Shown here: piece after piece, positions 4,838-49,057 of the stretch
How positions within the stretch are numbered: the stretch's first letter is position 1
Layout: each line of letters begins with the position of its first letter
Source of the DNA: Paludibacter sp.
GTDB taxonomy: Bacteria; Bacteroidota; Bacteroidia; Bacteroidales; Paludibacteraceae
Direction: 5' to 3'
Length of the DNA stretch: 64,000 nt
NCBI RefSeq assembly: GCF_009712605.1
Contig: NZ_WASO01000014.1
Location: forward strand, 310,001-374,000
Program-made: the position numbers and the translations under genes
The notes under the pieces: model-generated
The model's input: only the letters and a program-made list of their open reading frames with translations
Databases searched by the model: none
Told to the model about the DNA's origin: nothing

Positions 4838-5202
4838 GATTTTTTGGTTTTTAAGGTTTCCTACTCTTATGGCTTTTCAGTTACGCCCCGTTTGAGTGGT
4901 TTCCGGACTCCACATTATTATTTGATTATATGCGTATAATCTGATTTGTTTAATTTTCTGCTTTGGTTTTGCGCCTCAAAGTTGATTAAATTATTTGAAA
5001 TTGACAATAATATATATGATTTATTTTAACGTAAATATGATTTTAAGTGTGATGATTCAAGAGTGTAGTAACTCATAAAATGGAATGATGAATCGTATAT
5101 GTTTTGTTTTGATTGCTTTGTTTTATATATTTAACATTTAAAACAGCGTTGTCTCATAAATTCACTCTATTTTTGTACTATAAAACGATTTTAGTCTAAA
5201 AA
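4838..5202. promoter_or_regulatory. Divergent intergenic region, DUF805 and tetR promoters
   Basis: This 365-base gap separates DUF805 (minus) from tetR (plus). A TAnnTTTG box (TATTTTTG, 5168-5175) with a TTG at 5149-5151 lies 27 bases before tetR; the 16-base spacing is shorter than the usual 19. A perfect inverted repeat GATTATA-TGCG-TATAATC lies at 4924-4941 and is a candidate operator for the regulator or for DUF805. The rest is AT-rich and otherwise featureless. Confidence 0.5.
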
Positions 5203-18517: not shown

Positions 18518-18525
18518 TACCTTTG
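18518..18525 (+). promoter_or_regulatory. -7 box of the aminotransferase leader
   Basis: TACCTTTG matches TAnnTTTG. No TTG occurs at the expected -33 position; the region there is T-rich. Transcription would start about 7 bases downstream, some 25 bases before the leader peptide ATG. Confidence 0.6.
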
Positions 18526-18557
18526 CATCATGCTTTCGGGCAATTAAAAAATTGGAA

Positions 18558-18629
18558 ATGAGAATTAGTCTAAACATTATCGCGGTCATTATTATTATCA
18601 TCGGAATCCCCTGGATTTGCCGAAGGTGA
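18558..18629 (+). CDS. Ile-rich leader peptide of an attenuator
   Basis: A 23-codon frame with ATG at 18558 and TGA at 18627. Ten of 23 residues are Ile, with five in a row at codons 11-15 (18588-18602) after IIAV. It is placed between a -7 box and a strong terminator, and its last codons overlap RNA segments able to form a pause hairpin (18601-18623) and an antiterminator (18616-18626 with 18660-18671). That is the architecture of ribosome-mediated attenuation of branched-chain amino-acid genes. The alternative, a tiny membrane peptide, cannot be excluded because the sequence is hydrophobic. Confidence 0.78.
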   Translation: MRISLNIIAVIIIIIGIPWICRR

Positions 18630-18654
18630 TAGTTTTGTGCTGCGCAAAATATTC

Positions 18655-18693
18655 AACCCCCTTTCGGTAAATACCGGAAGGGGGTTTCTTTTT
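18655..18693 (+). terminator. Attenuator terminator before the aminotransferase
   Basis: Arms 18655-18669 and 18672-18686 pair over 15 positions with one G-T wobble (core AACCCCCTTTCGG), followed by TCTTTTTAT. The left arm is also the partner of the antiterminator strand CCGAAGG (18620-18626), so the two folds exclude each other. It stands 33 bases before the aminotransferase ATG, not behind a gene. Confidence 0.88.
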
Positions 18694-18719
18694 ATATTCA
18701 CTTTTATAATTTTTGTCTT

Positions 18720-19907
18720 ATGAATGTATCATCAACCGGCAGGTTTGCCACTCGCATGGAAGGAGTTCCACGTTCGTTTATCCGTGAAATTTTGAAAGTA
18801 GCTATTTCGCCCGAAGTAATTTCGTTCGCAGGCGGACTACCCAACAAAGCGCTATTTCCGTTAGAAGAACTTCAGGCGAGCGCAGCGAAACTGATGTCCG
18901 GGTTGGACCGGAATATTCTCCAGTATGCCAATACGGAAGGTTACCTGCCATTGCGTGAGAAGATTGCAGAGCGCTATGCACGCAAAGGGTTGAAGATCGA
19001 TCCACGGAATATTCTTATTACAAACGGTTCGCAACAGGGACTTGATTTGTTGGGGAAAATCTTTATCAACGAAGGTGATGCCGTGTTGATGGAAGAGCCC
19101 GGATATTTAGGCGCTATACAGGCTTTCTCTATCTTTCATCCCCGATTTGTAACGGTTCTACTCACCGACGAAGGTATTGATACGCAAATATTAAAACAGA
19201 AAATTGATACGGAAAATCCCCGTATGGCTTACCTGATTCCTAATTTTCAGAATCCTTCCGGCATTAGTTATACGGAAGAGCGTAGGCGAGAAGTTGCCGA
19301 AACCTGCAAAGGAAAACCAATGTTCTTAGTAGAAGATGATCCGTATGGTGATATTCGCTTCAGGGGAGAACAGAAAAACTCGTTTTACCATTATTTGCCT
19401 GAGCAAACTATATTGCTGGGAACCTTTTCTAAAACGGTTGTTCCGGCATTTCGCATGGGTTGGATAGTGGCTCCTGATGATGTGATGGAACGCTTGATCA
19501 TTGCTAAACAGGCAGCTGATCTGCATACTGATTATTTTACGCAGCGGTTGGTACATCAGTATCTTAGTGATTATGATATCGATCTGCACATATCGCAAAT
19601 ATGCCGGGCTTATGGCAAACAGGCCGATGCAATGATTTCTGCCATTGAACAGTATTTTCCGAAGGAGATACAGTTTACGCGTCCTGAAGGCGGAATGTTT
19701 TTATGGCTGACGTTGCCCGAAGGTCAGAGTGCAATGAAATTGTTTGATCTGGCCATCAAAGAGAACGTGGCTTTTGTGCCCGGAAATCCTTTCTACGTCG
19801 GCAAAACGGACGTGAATACCTGTCGGCTGAATTTCTCCTGTTCCAACGAGCATGAGATTGAAGTGGGGATTTGTAGATTGGCAAAAGTACTGGCAAGTTT
19901 AGGATAA
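18720..19907 (+). CDS. PLP aminotransferase, LysN/MocR-type fold I
   Basis: A 395-residue class I/II aminotransferase without a DNA-binding domain. Recognisable elements: SPEVISFAGGLPN (30-42), LQYANTEGYLPLRE, ITNGSQQGLD, EDDPYGDIRF with the PLP Asp, and GTFSKTVVPAFRMGW with the Schiff-base Lys238. The closest known group is the LysN/2-aminoadipate and branched-chain/aromatic aminotransferases. The Ile-rich leader and attenuator upstream suggest that the enzyme serves branched-chain amino-acid metabolism (isoleucine, valine or leucine transamination); this is inference from regulation. It is transcribed alone, with a terminator at 19922. Confidence 0.88.
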   Translation: MNVSSTGRFATRMEGVPRSFIREILKVAISPEVISFAGGLPNKALFPLEELQASAAKLMSGLDRNILQYANTEGYLPLREKIAERYARKGLKIDPRNILITNGSQQGLDLLGKIFINEGDAVLMEEPGYLGAIQAFSIFHPRFVTVLLTDEGIDTQILKQKIDTENPRMAYLIPNFQNPSGISYTEERRREVAETCKGKPMFLVEDDPYGDIRFRGEQKNSFYHYLPEQTILLGTFSKTVVPAFRMGWIVAPDDVMERLIIAKQAADLHTDYFTQRLVHQYLSDYDIDLHISQICRAYGKQADAMISAIEQYFPKEIQFTRPEGGMFLWLTLPEGQSAMKLFDLAIKENVAFVPGNPFYVGKTDVNTCRLNFSCSNEHEIEVGICRLAKVLASLG

Positions 19908-19921
19908 TAATGAATTCATTT

Positions 19922-19955
19922 CTGCCCGGATGGTATTTATCATTCGGGCAGTTTA
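19922..19955 (+). terminator. Terminator after the aminotransferase
   Basis: CTGCCCGGATG (19922-19932) pairs with CATTCGGGCAG (19941-19951), with one G-T pair and an 8-base loop, followed by TTTATT. It isolates the aminotransferase from the rhamnosidase. Confidence 0.8.
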
Positions 19956-20050: not shown

Positions 20051-20058
20051 TATATTTG
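20051..20058 (+). promoter_or_regulatory. -7 box of the rhamnosidase gene
   Basis: TATATTTG matches TAnnTTTG, 45 bases before the ATG. No TTG lies at the expected -33 position. Confidence 0.45.
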
Positions 20059-20103: not shown

Positions 20104-23100
20104 ATGAAACGCGCCACTACAATTTTCTGCTGCCGGGCAATACTGTTTCTGCTCTTATACCTACCTGTTAATTCGGTGGTTATTGCCCAATCAACTCATC
20201 TTTGCAAAATCACGAACCTGCTTACGGAATACACATCTTCACCGATAGGTATTGATGTTGCTAAACCCCGGTTTAGCTGGCAAATGCAGGTCGAAGGTAA
20301 TGAGCGGGGATATTTTCAGAAAGCGTATCAAATTGTGGTCAATGACGACAATGGCAATATGGTCTGGAATAGCGGAAAACAGGAAAGCAGCATTTCTCTG
20401 AATATAGAATATCGCGGGACTCCTATACAGGCCGAAACGCGTTACACTTGGCATCTGACTGTTTGGAATCAAAAAAATGAAGAGCTTACGGCTGATTCGT
20501 GGTTTGAAACGGGGTTAATGAATCCTTCTCTACAGGCCTGGAATGGTGCAAAATGGATTGGAGGTGCGGGCGATCAAATTCCATTCTATTCTCACTATTT
20601 CTCGGTATTCAAGATTGGCTGTACCATTCAGCTCGATGCCGCTTCCGGTTCTTCGAAGGCATCTCTCGTGTTTGGTGCGAACGATAAGCGGTTGATGGAT
20701 AAAAACAAGAATGTGTTTAATCTGTCCAATAAACTAAATGCGTCTTACATCAGGGTGGAACTGGACTGCTCAGGTCTTATCAATAAAGAAGATGCTTTTG
20801 CTCAGATAAAGGTTTATCGGGCAGGATATCACCCCGGAGACAAAAAGGATAAACCTATTGGTTCTGTAGTTGTTCCAACATCAATTATCACTGTTGGTAA
20901 TGTGTATGCTGCTCATACCATCCTGGTCGAGTCATCGGTCGGTACTTTGAATTTTGAGATTGACGGACAAAAGATTGTGATTCCAAAGCTGGCAAATCAT
21001 AATGCTTACATTCCTTTCGGGATTCAGGTAAATCCAATGGGAGTTGGTGGCGATTATATCGGATTCCCGATGGTGGCTGACGTGGGTTTTATGCTGGAGA
21101 AACACCAGAAAGCTGCCTTTTCGAATTTGCAAATCAGGAATTACCGGAGTCCTTCCAGTGTTTTATTTGCGGAAGATATTCCGGATAACGGTGAATACGA
21201 AGGAATTTTTGCCAAAGATCTTCAAAGTGGCAAAACAAACATTGAAATTAAAAATCGTTCTATAGTGCTTTCCGGCGATAAGCACGGCTGTTTTCTCGTA
21301 GCCGATCCTACCCGAAATGCAATGCCGATGTTGCGAACTACATTTGACAATGGCAATAAAACAATCCGATCAGCTCGTATATACGTAACGGCAAGGGGTA
21401 TTTACGAACTATGGATTAACGGAAACAGGGTGGGGAACGACTGGTTTAATCCTGGACTCTCACAATACGATAAAACTCATTTTTATCAGACTTATGACGT
21501 GACTTCTTTGTTACAACAGGGCAAAAATGCGGTAGGAGTAATGTTGGGAGAAGGCTGGTGGAGCGGTAACTTGTCCTACTTGCCTGTCAATTGGAATTAC
21601 TTCGGCGACCGCCAATCTCTTTTGATGAAAATGGTAATCCGATTCAATGACGGCACATCTAAAACAATCACCTCCGACCCGTCCATGTGGAAATATTTTA
21701 CCAACGGACCGGTACGTTACGGAAGTTTCTTTCAGGGCGAAGTATACGATGCGACGAAAGAGCAATTGATTGAAAAATGGACGACTTCGAAGTATGATGA
21801 TTCGGAGTGGAGCAAGGCTGTGGAGGTGTTGACTGACGGAACAACTTATAAGGACTCTCTGACTGAAAAAGATCATCAGGCGACTGTTGAGAAAATGCTG
21901 GTTTTCCACAATCCCGACCGGACAGAACTGATAGGGCAGATCGGAGACAATGTCAAACAGGTCAACGAACTCACGGCTCAAAGTGCGAGTGAAGTTCGCC
22001 ACGGTGTGTATGTCTATGATATGGGACAAAATATGGTAGGAGTACCGTGCATTCGTTTGGAGGGGTATAAAAAAGGCCATGTAATTACATTTCGGTTTGC
22101 GGAAATGCAATATCCCCACATGAAGGAATACAGCAAGAATAAAGATATGATCATGCTGGAGAATATAAGGGCAGCGCTGGCTCAGGATATTTATATTTGT
22201 AAAGGAGGAAAAGAGACATTCCAGCCTCATTTTACCTTTCACGGTTATAGATTTATCGAAATTACCGGATTGAATAAGCCCTTACCTCTCTCTTCAGTTA
22301 CAGGCAAAGTCCTGAGTTCCGTTCAAAAAATAATATCTCATTACACGACCTCCAATCCGGATGTTAATCGCTTGTGGGAAAACATTTGCTGGTCAATGCA
22401 GGGTAATTTTCTGTCTATCCCCACTGATTGTCCGCAACGCAACGAGCGAATGGGGTGGAGTGGCGATATTTCGGTTTTTTCACGTACAGCTACTTACATG
22501 GGAATGGTTCCTCAGTTCCTTCGCCGGCATGTACTCGCTCTGCATGATACTCAGTACGACGACGGACGTTTTGCGGATGTGGCTCCTATAGGCGGCGGTT
22601 TCGGAGGCATCGTGTGGGGTAGTGCCGGTATTACTGTTCCCTGGGAATCGTACCTTCAATACGGAGACAGCTCCATGTTGGCAGAACATTACGATGCTAT
22701 GAAACGTTACGTCGACTATTTGAACCGAAATATCGATGCCAAAACCGTTGTAACAACTACAGGTCAGTTGGCAGATTGGTTGAGTCCGGAAGGTAATTTG
22801 ATCGGTCCTGTTGGGGTAAATAATCTTGTGTGGGATGCCTACTATGCTTACGATTTGGATTTAATGCATCGTATGGCAAAAGTTCTTGGCAAAGAAGAAG
22901 ATGCTCGTACTTTCGCTACACTTTTTGCAAAACGCAAACAGTATTTCAATGCTACTTATATTGACCCGGAGACAAAGAAAACGCGTCAGTTATTTCCTCC
23001 AAAAATATGTGATAATCAGGTGTCGTATGTAGTTCCTCTGGCACTAAACCTGCTGAACGATTCAAACAAAGAACCCGCCATCAGCCATCTTGTTCGGAAT

Positions 23101-48979: not shown

Positions 48980-48995
48980 ATTAACGAGAAAGAAT

Positions 48996-49048
48996 CACGT
49001 TTTAGCATTTTTTTCCGTGGTTGCAAGCAATCAAATCTATCCACTATT
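48996..49048 (-). promoter_or_regulatory. SAM-II riboswitch upstream of metK
   Basis: Read on the minus strand, the segment has GTGG (P1 left), GATTTGATTGCTTGCAACC, CAC (P1 right), then an A-rich linker and TGCTAAAA. This is the conserved order of the SAM-II (metA) aptamer: P1, a TGATTTG-like joining region, GCTTGCAnCCAC, and GCTAAA forming the pseudoknot. It lies directly behind a consensus promoter, 128 bases before metK, and is followed by a terminator hairpin. SAM-II is an established class; placement by eye, boundaries approximate. Confidence 0.85.
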
Positions 49049-49057
49049 TTGACGATG

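Follow-up and report, generated by a model that had tools for sequence, protein, structure and literature searches.

A candidate branched-chain leader-peptide attenuator precedes a LysN-like aminotransferase gene in Paludibacter and its relatives

INTRODUCTION

Why would a lone gene for a LysN-like aminotransferase be preceded by a short reading frame with five consecutive isoleucine codons? This arrangement occurs in a 64,000-nt stretch of a Paludibacter sp. genome (G000, contig C13, positions 310001 to 374000); the whole stretch is called the window here. The initial annotation of the locus described a complete isoleucine attenuator and took it as a clue to branched-chain transamination. Leader-peptide attenuators of the ilv type are known from the ilvGMEDA, ilvBN, and leu operons of enterobacteria. 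Here, we examine the elements of the leader, the order of its folds, its conservation, and the genes with which it is associated.

RESULTS

Elements of a probable attenuator precede the aminotransferase gene

The -7 box, the Ile-rich frame, the hairpin, the CCGAAGG segment, its partner, and the terminator described in the initial annotation were all found where it had placed them (Table 1); the terminator stem, counted there as 15 bp, has 14 pairs in our fold. The Bacteroidetes promoter -7 consensus is TAnnTTTG. The putative promoter element of the window lies between the end of an upstream thioredoxin-like gene (18450) and the leader, and TAnnTTTG is found 32 to 48 nt 5' of the leader ATG in 8 of the 12 homologous leaders described below. 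Two others have TTCCTTTG in its place, and the remaining two have neither motif within 90 nt. The predicted leader peptide, MRISLNIIAVIIIIIGIPWICRR, contains ten Ile among its 23 residues, with one Val and one Leu, and 8 of 10 residues in its run are Ile, Leu, or Val.

Table 1. Features of the leader and the regulated gene in the window
Feature	Position	Strand	Basis or remark
-7 box TACCTTTG	18518..18525	+	Bacteroidetes-type promoter; read from sequence
Leader peptide gene	18558..18629	+	ATG 18558, TGA 18627-18629; 23 codons
Five consecutive Ile codons, main sensing stretch	18588..18602	+	Sequence
1:2 hairpin	18591..18633	+	Fold, -15.0 kcal/mol; core 18601-18623
Segment 2, CCGAAGG	18620..18626	+	Common to 1:2 hairpin and 2:3 antiterminator
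Segment 3	18655..18668	+	Terminator 5' arm and antiterminator 3' arm
Predicted intrinsic terminator	18655..18693	+	14-bp stem 18655-18686, -24.2 kcal/mol, plus T-rich tract
LysN/KAT-II-like class I/II aminotransferase, regulated gene	18720..19907	+	395 aa; PF00155, E 1e-35
Hairpin CTGCCCG...CGGGCAG, then T-rich DNA	19922..19951	+	By eye, unscored; likely one-gene transcript end

The core of the 1:2 hairpin reads TCGG-AATCC/GGATT-TG-CCGA, and its outer helix pairs Ile codons with GGTGATAGT. Segment 2 overlaps the last codons of the leader frame, and its antiterminator partner is CCTTTCGG at 18660-18667. The predicted terminator (arms 18655-18668 and 18673-18686, T-rich tract 18685-18693) precedes the aminotransferase gene, which is the place of an intrinsic terminator in a ribosome-mediated attenuator. 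The region from 18530 to 18700 folds at -56.7 kcal/mol, compared with -37.0 (SD 4.1) for shuffled sequences, none of which was as low (0/200).

Downstream, the next large gene on the same strand encodes a rhamnosidase and begins at 20104, with TATATTTG upstream of it at 20051 (by eye). Because this motif and the hairpin that follows the aminotransferase gene both precede the rhamnosidase gene, the aminotransferase gene is probably transcribed alone, in line with its earlier description.

The leader matches no Rfam family at the gathering score. The window has two matches above that score elsewhere, a SAM-II riboswitch at 48992-49050 and a DUF805 RNA at 4854-4918, both on the minus strand.

The position of the ribosome would decide among three predicted folds

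We folded the leader with the RNA under the ribosome hidden at each codon in turn (the first A-site base plus 14, an assumed footprint). With no ribosome, or with the A site at codons 1 to 4, segment 2 was sequestered in the 1:2 hairpin. Moving the A site to codons 5 to 16 gave 8.7 to 8.9 pairs of the 2:3 duplex in a transcript ending before segment 4, and the number fell to 6.8 at codon 17, 2.9 at codon 18, and 0.8 at codon 19. From codon 20 to the stop codon, neither 1:2 nor 2:3 formed; segment 2 was covered, and the 3:4 terminator was left. Codons 5 to 17 include eight of the ten Ile codons. The calculation thus reproduced the proposal that a stall frees segment 2 for segment 3 and that a finished peptide permits the terminator. 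In the calculation, the 1:2, 2:3, and 3:4 folds are mutually exclusive, with the stall position deciding among them; the antiterminator duplex of the window taken alone is unexceptional (P = 0.11; -12.7 kcal/mol, versus -9.3 kcal/mol in shuffled sequences). After segment 4 has been made, the terminator is the more stable structure for almost all stall positions, those around codons 10 to 12 being the exceptions, so the antiterminator would have to act by folding first. In other attenuators as well, the order of synthesis matters.

Among 35 modules from the window and its relatives, the shuffle test on single antiterminators gave P <= 0.05 in 15, the first 12 rows being homologous and not independent. 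We also exchanged segment 3 partners among 30 modules. With native partners, the segment 2-segment 3 duplexes total -416.0 kcal/mol, whereas swapped partners gave a mean of -301.8 and a best value of -370.7 kcal/mol, and none of 5,000 permutations was as good as the native pairing; near-identical copies were left out. Because the modules share ancestry, this result should not be read as a strict probability. In six of the 30 modules, pairing with the native partner falls in the lower half of the ranking.

We propose that the region is a ribosome-mediated transcription attenuator that would sense charged branched-chain tRNA, in this genus chiefly through Ile codons, and would control a LysN-like aminotransferase whose role would be that of a second branched-chain transaminase. 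We assign this reading a probability of about 0.86. With the ribosome absent or at the first codons, the 1:2 hairpin would keep segment 2, and the terminator would form. Under a shortage of Ile-tRNA, a ribosome halted at the Ile codons would disrupt the 1:2 hairpin, segment 2 would pair with segment 3 before RNA polymerase makes segment 4, and transcription would continue into the aminotransferase gene. With ample Ile, the ribosome would reach the stop codon and cover segment 2, and the terminator would form.

Close orthologs keep the layout and vary the sensing residue

Comparison with related Bacteroidales, the check suggested in the initial annotation, showed that the layout is kept across orthologs. 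All 12 close orthologs, the window's included (L001-L004, L006, L016-L018, and L077-L080; 70.8 to 100% identity), have a homologous leader frame and a called terminator. The run drifts among Ile, Val, and Leu with the layout kept, as in MRLSLNSIAVIIIVIGIPGICRR, MKLQLIAVVLIVLGITKIHRR, MNLVLNISAVIIIIVIGIPRIYRR, and MRRNLINIVVVAIIVTWVRTIHRR; at the position of the five Ile codons, relatives carry Ile, Val, or Leu and rarely Ala.

Across the 12 aligned leaders, 94.4% of cells are paired in the 1:2 core, 96.4% in 2:3, and 92.2% in the 3:4 terminator stem. Covariation was not above shuffles in the 12 leaders, whose columns hardly vary, and likewise on 8 sequences. One terminator pair had both sides changed, which was not above shuffles, and no such change occurred in 1:2 or 2:3 within the close family. 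Under a strict test of covariation this is a negative result, and near-invariant columns are to be expected where one segment must pair with two partners. One antiterminator pair is broken in L079 and L080, and another is broken in L077. The covarying stems predicted in the initial annotation were not clearly seen in the close family and came to light only when divergent modules were compared. Among 11 distal modules tabulated, the 9-pair antiterminator is imperfect in 4, with one or two mismatches each, and at two antiterminator positions both partners differ between modules, C-G being replaced by A-U in L112/L113 and A-U by G-C in L122/L123.

The drift bears on what is sensed. The leader could sense Ile alone, with the drift in relatives reflecting lost or changed regulation there, and the predominance of Ile in the window peptide and its frequency in most of the 12 close leaders would agree with this. 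However, Ile is replaced mostly by Val or Leu and not at random (some Ala occurs in L006), and distant leaders that are rich in Val or Leu (MDFKLQNNILQLVVVVGNRTP, MIINNTNILSAALLLALLLNRKLRGY) have kept their terminators. We consider sensing of Ile alone unlikely. The isoleucine signal of the initial annotation is better described as a branched-chain signal, since relatives swap Ile for Val or Leu.

Distant orthologs carry other leaders, often two in series

Orthologs were sought in genome sets of the family (300 genomes), the order (393), the class (395), and four other families (23, 20, 4, and 71), with cutoffs of E <= 1e-120, 1e-100, or 1e-80 depending on the set. Matches were found in 8, 13, 2, 7, 6, 2, and 4 genomes, respectively, a patchy distribution in sets that overlap and differ in cutoff. 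In the large sets, at most 4 to 6 first-look candidates per genome were scored, and carriers may have been missed. A tree was computed from 47 rows, of which one (L013) was dropped and 46 were placed. Thirty of the 46 form one clade with moderate support (87/75), two Gastranaerophilales rows adjoin it, and 14 stand apart. Within the clade, the close leader is found in 12 members and leaders with other stems in 10; 5 members lie in ilv operons, and 3 have neither a leader nor an ilv operon (L082, L083, and L084; L082 has a frame with 6 of 10 residues Ile, Leu, or Val and no called terminator).

The ten distant leaders (L085, L086, L088, L109-L114, and L120) again have runs of Ile, Val, and Leu and match the close leaders in layout, with different stem sequences, and their peptides share little besides these runs. 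At nine of the ten loci, two leader-terminator modules stand in series before the aminotransferase gene (L085/L107, L086/L106, L088/L108, L109, L110, L112-L114, and L120); L111 has one. Both modules were called by the script at seven of these loci, and one was completed by eye in L113 and in L120. The threshold for tandem calls was 5 Ile, Leu, or Val in 10 residues, below the 8 of the specificity scan described below, which makes the calls of the weaker first modules in L086 and L109 less certain. With three operons described below, tandem modules are found at nine lone genes and three operons among the 27 leader-bearing clade members. As a paralog control, 24 homologs with less than 45% identity yielded two weak modules (L010 and L029), three of the rows having short upstream DNA.

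We also searched 101 genomes with a covariance model of the leader, R1. The idea of a widespread leader family was rejected on this basis: strong matches (E below 1e-20) occurred in 6 of the 101 genomes, all before the aminotransferase gene. Sixteen loci among 33 weaker rows, inspected by eye, were terminators, a tRNA region, and coding DNA, save one Asn leader; of the 17 other rows, 5 overlap the leader on the opposite strand. R1 is too sequence-bound to reach the distant leaders. At L060:1476-1535 (G092), the leader MKAFFFNNNNNNCPPFKRR and a terminator lie just before an asnA-like gene at 1615 (named by eye) and, judging from sequence, look like an asparagine attenuator.

The aminotransferase gene lies in ilv operons in five relatives

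The gene order is ilvD-aminotransferase-ilvB-ilvN in G064 and G421 (TIGR00110, TIGR00118, and TIGR00119 over cutoffs) and ilvB-aminotransferase in G089, G1131, and G340 (TIGR00118). These operons back the initial guess of branched-chain transamination. Upstream of ilvB, two modules each were called in G089 and G1131, and the script called a single module in G340, where a second, with a GTG start, was found by eye; at these tandem loci (L122, L123, and L126), both modules are rich in Ile, Val, and Leu. One leader and terminator each, missed by the script, were found by eye upstream of ilvD in G064 and G421.

The regions upstream of ilvD and ilvE were also examined. In the window genome, ilvD is preceded by a terminator and the leader MNNSILLVNVVVLLVKS, with one Ile, four Leu, and five Val. 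A leader and terminator precede ilvD in 6 of 8 genomes, and Val/Leu-rich examples were seen at L090/L131 (G000), L089, L092, L093, L095, and L096. No leader was found within 450 nt of ilvD in G005 (L094), which has different DNA upstream, and in G003 a contig end leaves 176 nt, in which a partial leader is visible. Within 450 nt of ilvE, no attenuator was found in any of six genomes.

The regulated enzyme is related to LysN and KAT-II over most of its length (residues 16 to 393 of 395 align with 2egy). Its PDB relatives include the alpha-aminoadipate aminotransferase 2egy (E 3.2e-91) and the multiple substrate aminotransferase 1wst (E 8.4e-86), and the solved structures nearest by sequence are aminoadipate, kynurenine, and multiple-substrate aminotransferases. 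It is not a member of TIGR01123 (ilvE), whose sole match in the genome is another gene, C13:512549-513472. Matches to ilvE are present in 98 of 101 relatives' genomes, the window's included, and in 18 of 20 further clade members. The two without a match, G1131 and G1069, are draft genomes (95% and 93% complete, respectively) and carry the aminotransferase with a branched-chain leader. A role as a replacement for a missing ilvE was rejected for the window genome, where ilvE is present; there, the aminotransferase is not needed merely to provide a branched-chain transaminase.

The enzyme could thus be a true LysN, acting on 2-aminoadipate, or a kynurenine or aromatic aminotransferase that is merely under branched-chain control, as its closest solved relatives and the near-universal ilvE would allow. 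Against this stand the five ilv operons and the two carriers without an ilvE match, and we regard such a substrate as improbable. The context points to branched-chain substrates. Given the ilvE gene of the window genome, the regulation and context indicate that the aminotransferase is probably a second, regulated branched-chain transaminase.

Among the scanned genes, the richest branched-chain leaders precede aminotransferase or ilv genes

The upstream regions of 174 genes encoding at least 150 aa, taken from the window and 15 long loci, were scanned; overlap of L019 with L129 reduces these to 167 distinct genes. A run of at least 8 Ile, Leu, or Val in 10 residues followed by a terminator was found upstream of 10 of the 174. 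These were this aminotransferase gene (6) or ilv genes (4), the ten including near relatives and not being independent, and none of the other genes among the 174 reached this level with a terminator. Five others (four distinct) reached only 6 or 7 in 10. The script missed two ilvD leaders found by eye (L124 and L125).

The 35 leader peptides, partly chosen for these residues, contain 46.8% Ile, Val, and Leu, compared with 22.0% in the window proteome (Ile, 19.9 versus 6.9%; Val, 15.4 versus 6.7%; Leu, 11.5 versus 8.4%). Phe (1.8 versus 4.4%), Met (0.7 versus 2.4%), Trp, and Ala (6.3 versus 7.5%) are not raised, and hydrophobicity as such is therefore not the property that is kept. A functional small membrane peptide followed by an ordinary intergenic terminator, suggested by the hydrophobic run, by the upstream gene that ends before the leader, and by how common such terminators are, is highly improbable in view of this composition, of a segment 2 that overlaps the last codons and prefers its own terminator arm to swapped ones, of the -7 box between the upstream gene and the leader, and of distant peptides alike in little but their runs. 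Taken together, the results confirm that the attenuator-like leader is real and well supported.

DISCUSSION

The window leader appears, from its sequence, to add a new member to an established class of switches, the leader-peptide transcription attenuators. Like the ilv-type attenuators, including that of C. glutamicum ilvBNC (PMC11857589, available passage), it combines a short peptide rich in Ile, Val, and Leu codons, alternative hairpins, and an intrinsic terminator with branched-chain genes. In contrast to them, it would control a lone LysN-like aminotransferase gene rather than an ilv operon, and the likeness is one of layout. The Bacteroid-trp RNA (RF01692), presumably a Trp leader-peptide attenuator, differs in amino acid and genes, and the window has no match to RF01692 at the gathering score. 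In the part of PMC2864571 available, this RNA is a cis-regulatory leader in Bacteroidetes. In the same phylum, leader-peptide attenuators with the same proposed mechanism precede amino acid operons of Flavobacterium psychrophilum, according to a passage of PMC9723704 that gives no gene names, and short frames reminiscent of leader peptides are mentioned for B. thetaiotaomicron in a portion of PMC7366714.

The most unusual feature is the tandem arrangement seen in relatives. Salmonella mgtCBR, in the accessible part of PMC3641672, has tandem attenuators for two signals, ATP and proline. The relatives of the window similarly place one short leader frame after another ahead of the regulated genes, but both peptides of a pair are branched-chain rich, and the window itself has a single module. 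No description of this leader or of tandem branched-chain leaders was found in the openly accessible literature examined, which does not prove their absence, and the available parts of PMC4833913 and PMC6429828 contain nothing on this leader.

For the wider group, we see an even chance that a Bacteroidales clade of LysN-like aminotransferases carries out the final step of branched-chain amino acid synthesis under feedback control, in some genomes perhaps without ilvE, and that the sensing residue of its attenuator has shifted among Ile, Val, and Leu during evolution. Where two attenuators stand in series, as in about a dozen relatives, both terminators would have to be defeated, giving an AND gate or a sharpened response to branched-chain shortage.

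The leader suggests a likely role for an enzyme that would be classed as LysN- or kynurenine-like from its sequence alone. Within one genome, separate leaders read mostly Val and Leu before ilvD and mostly Ile before the aminotransferase gene, and the relatives form a natural set of variants, some with a different sensing residue and some with doubled attenuators. These observations point to a branched-chain regulon run by leader peptides in the Bacteroidales.
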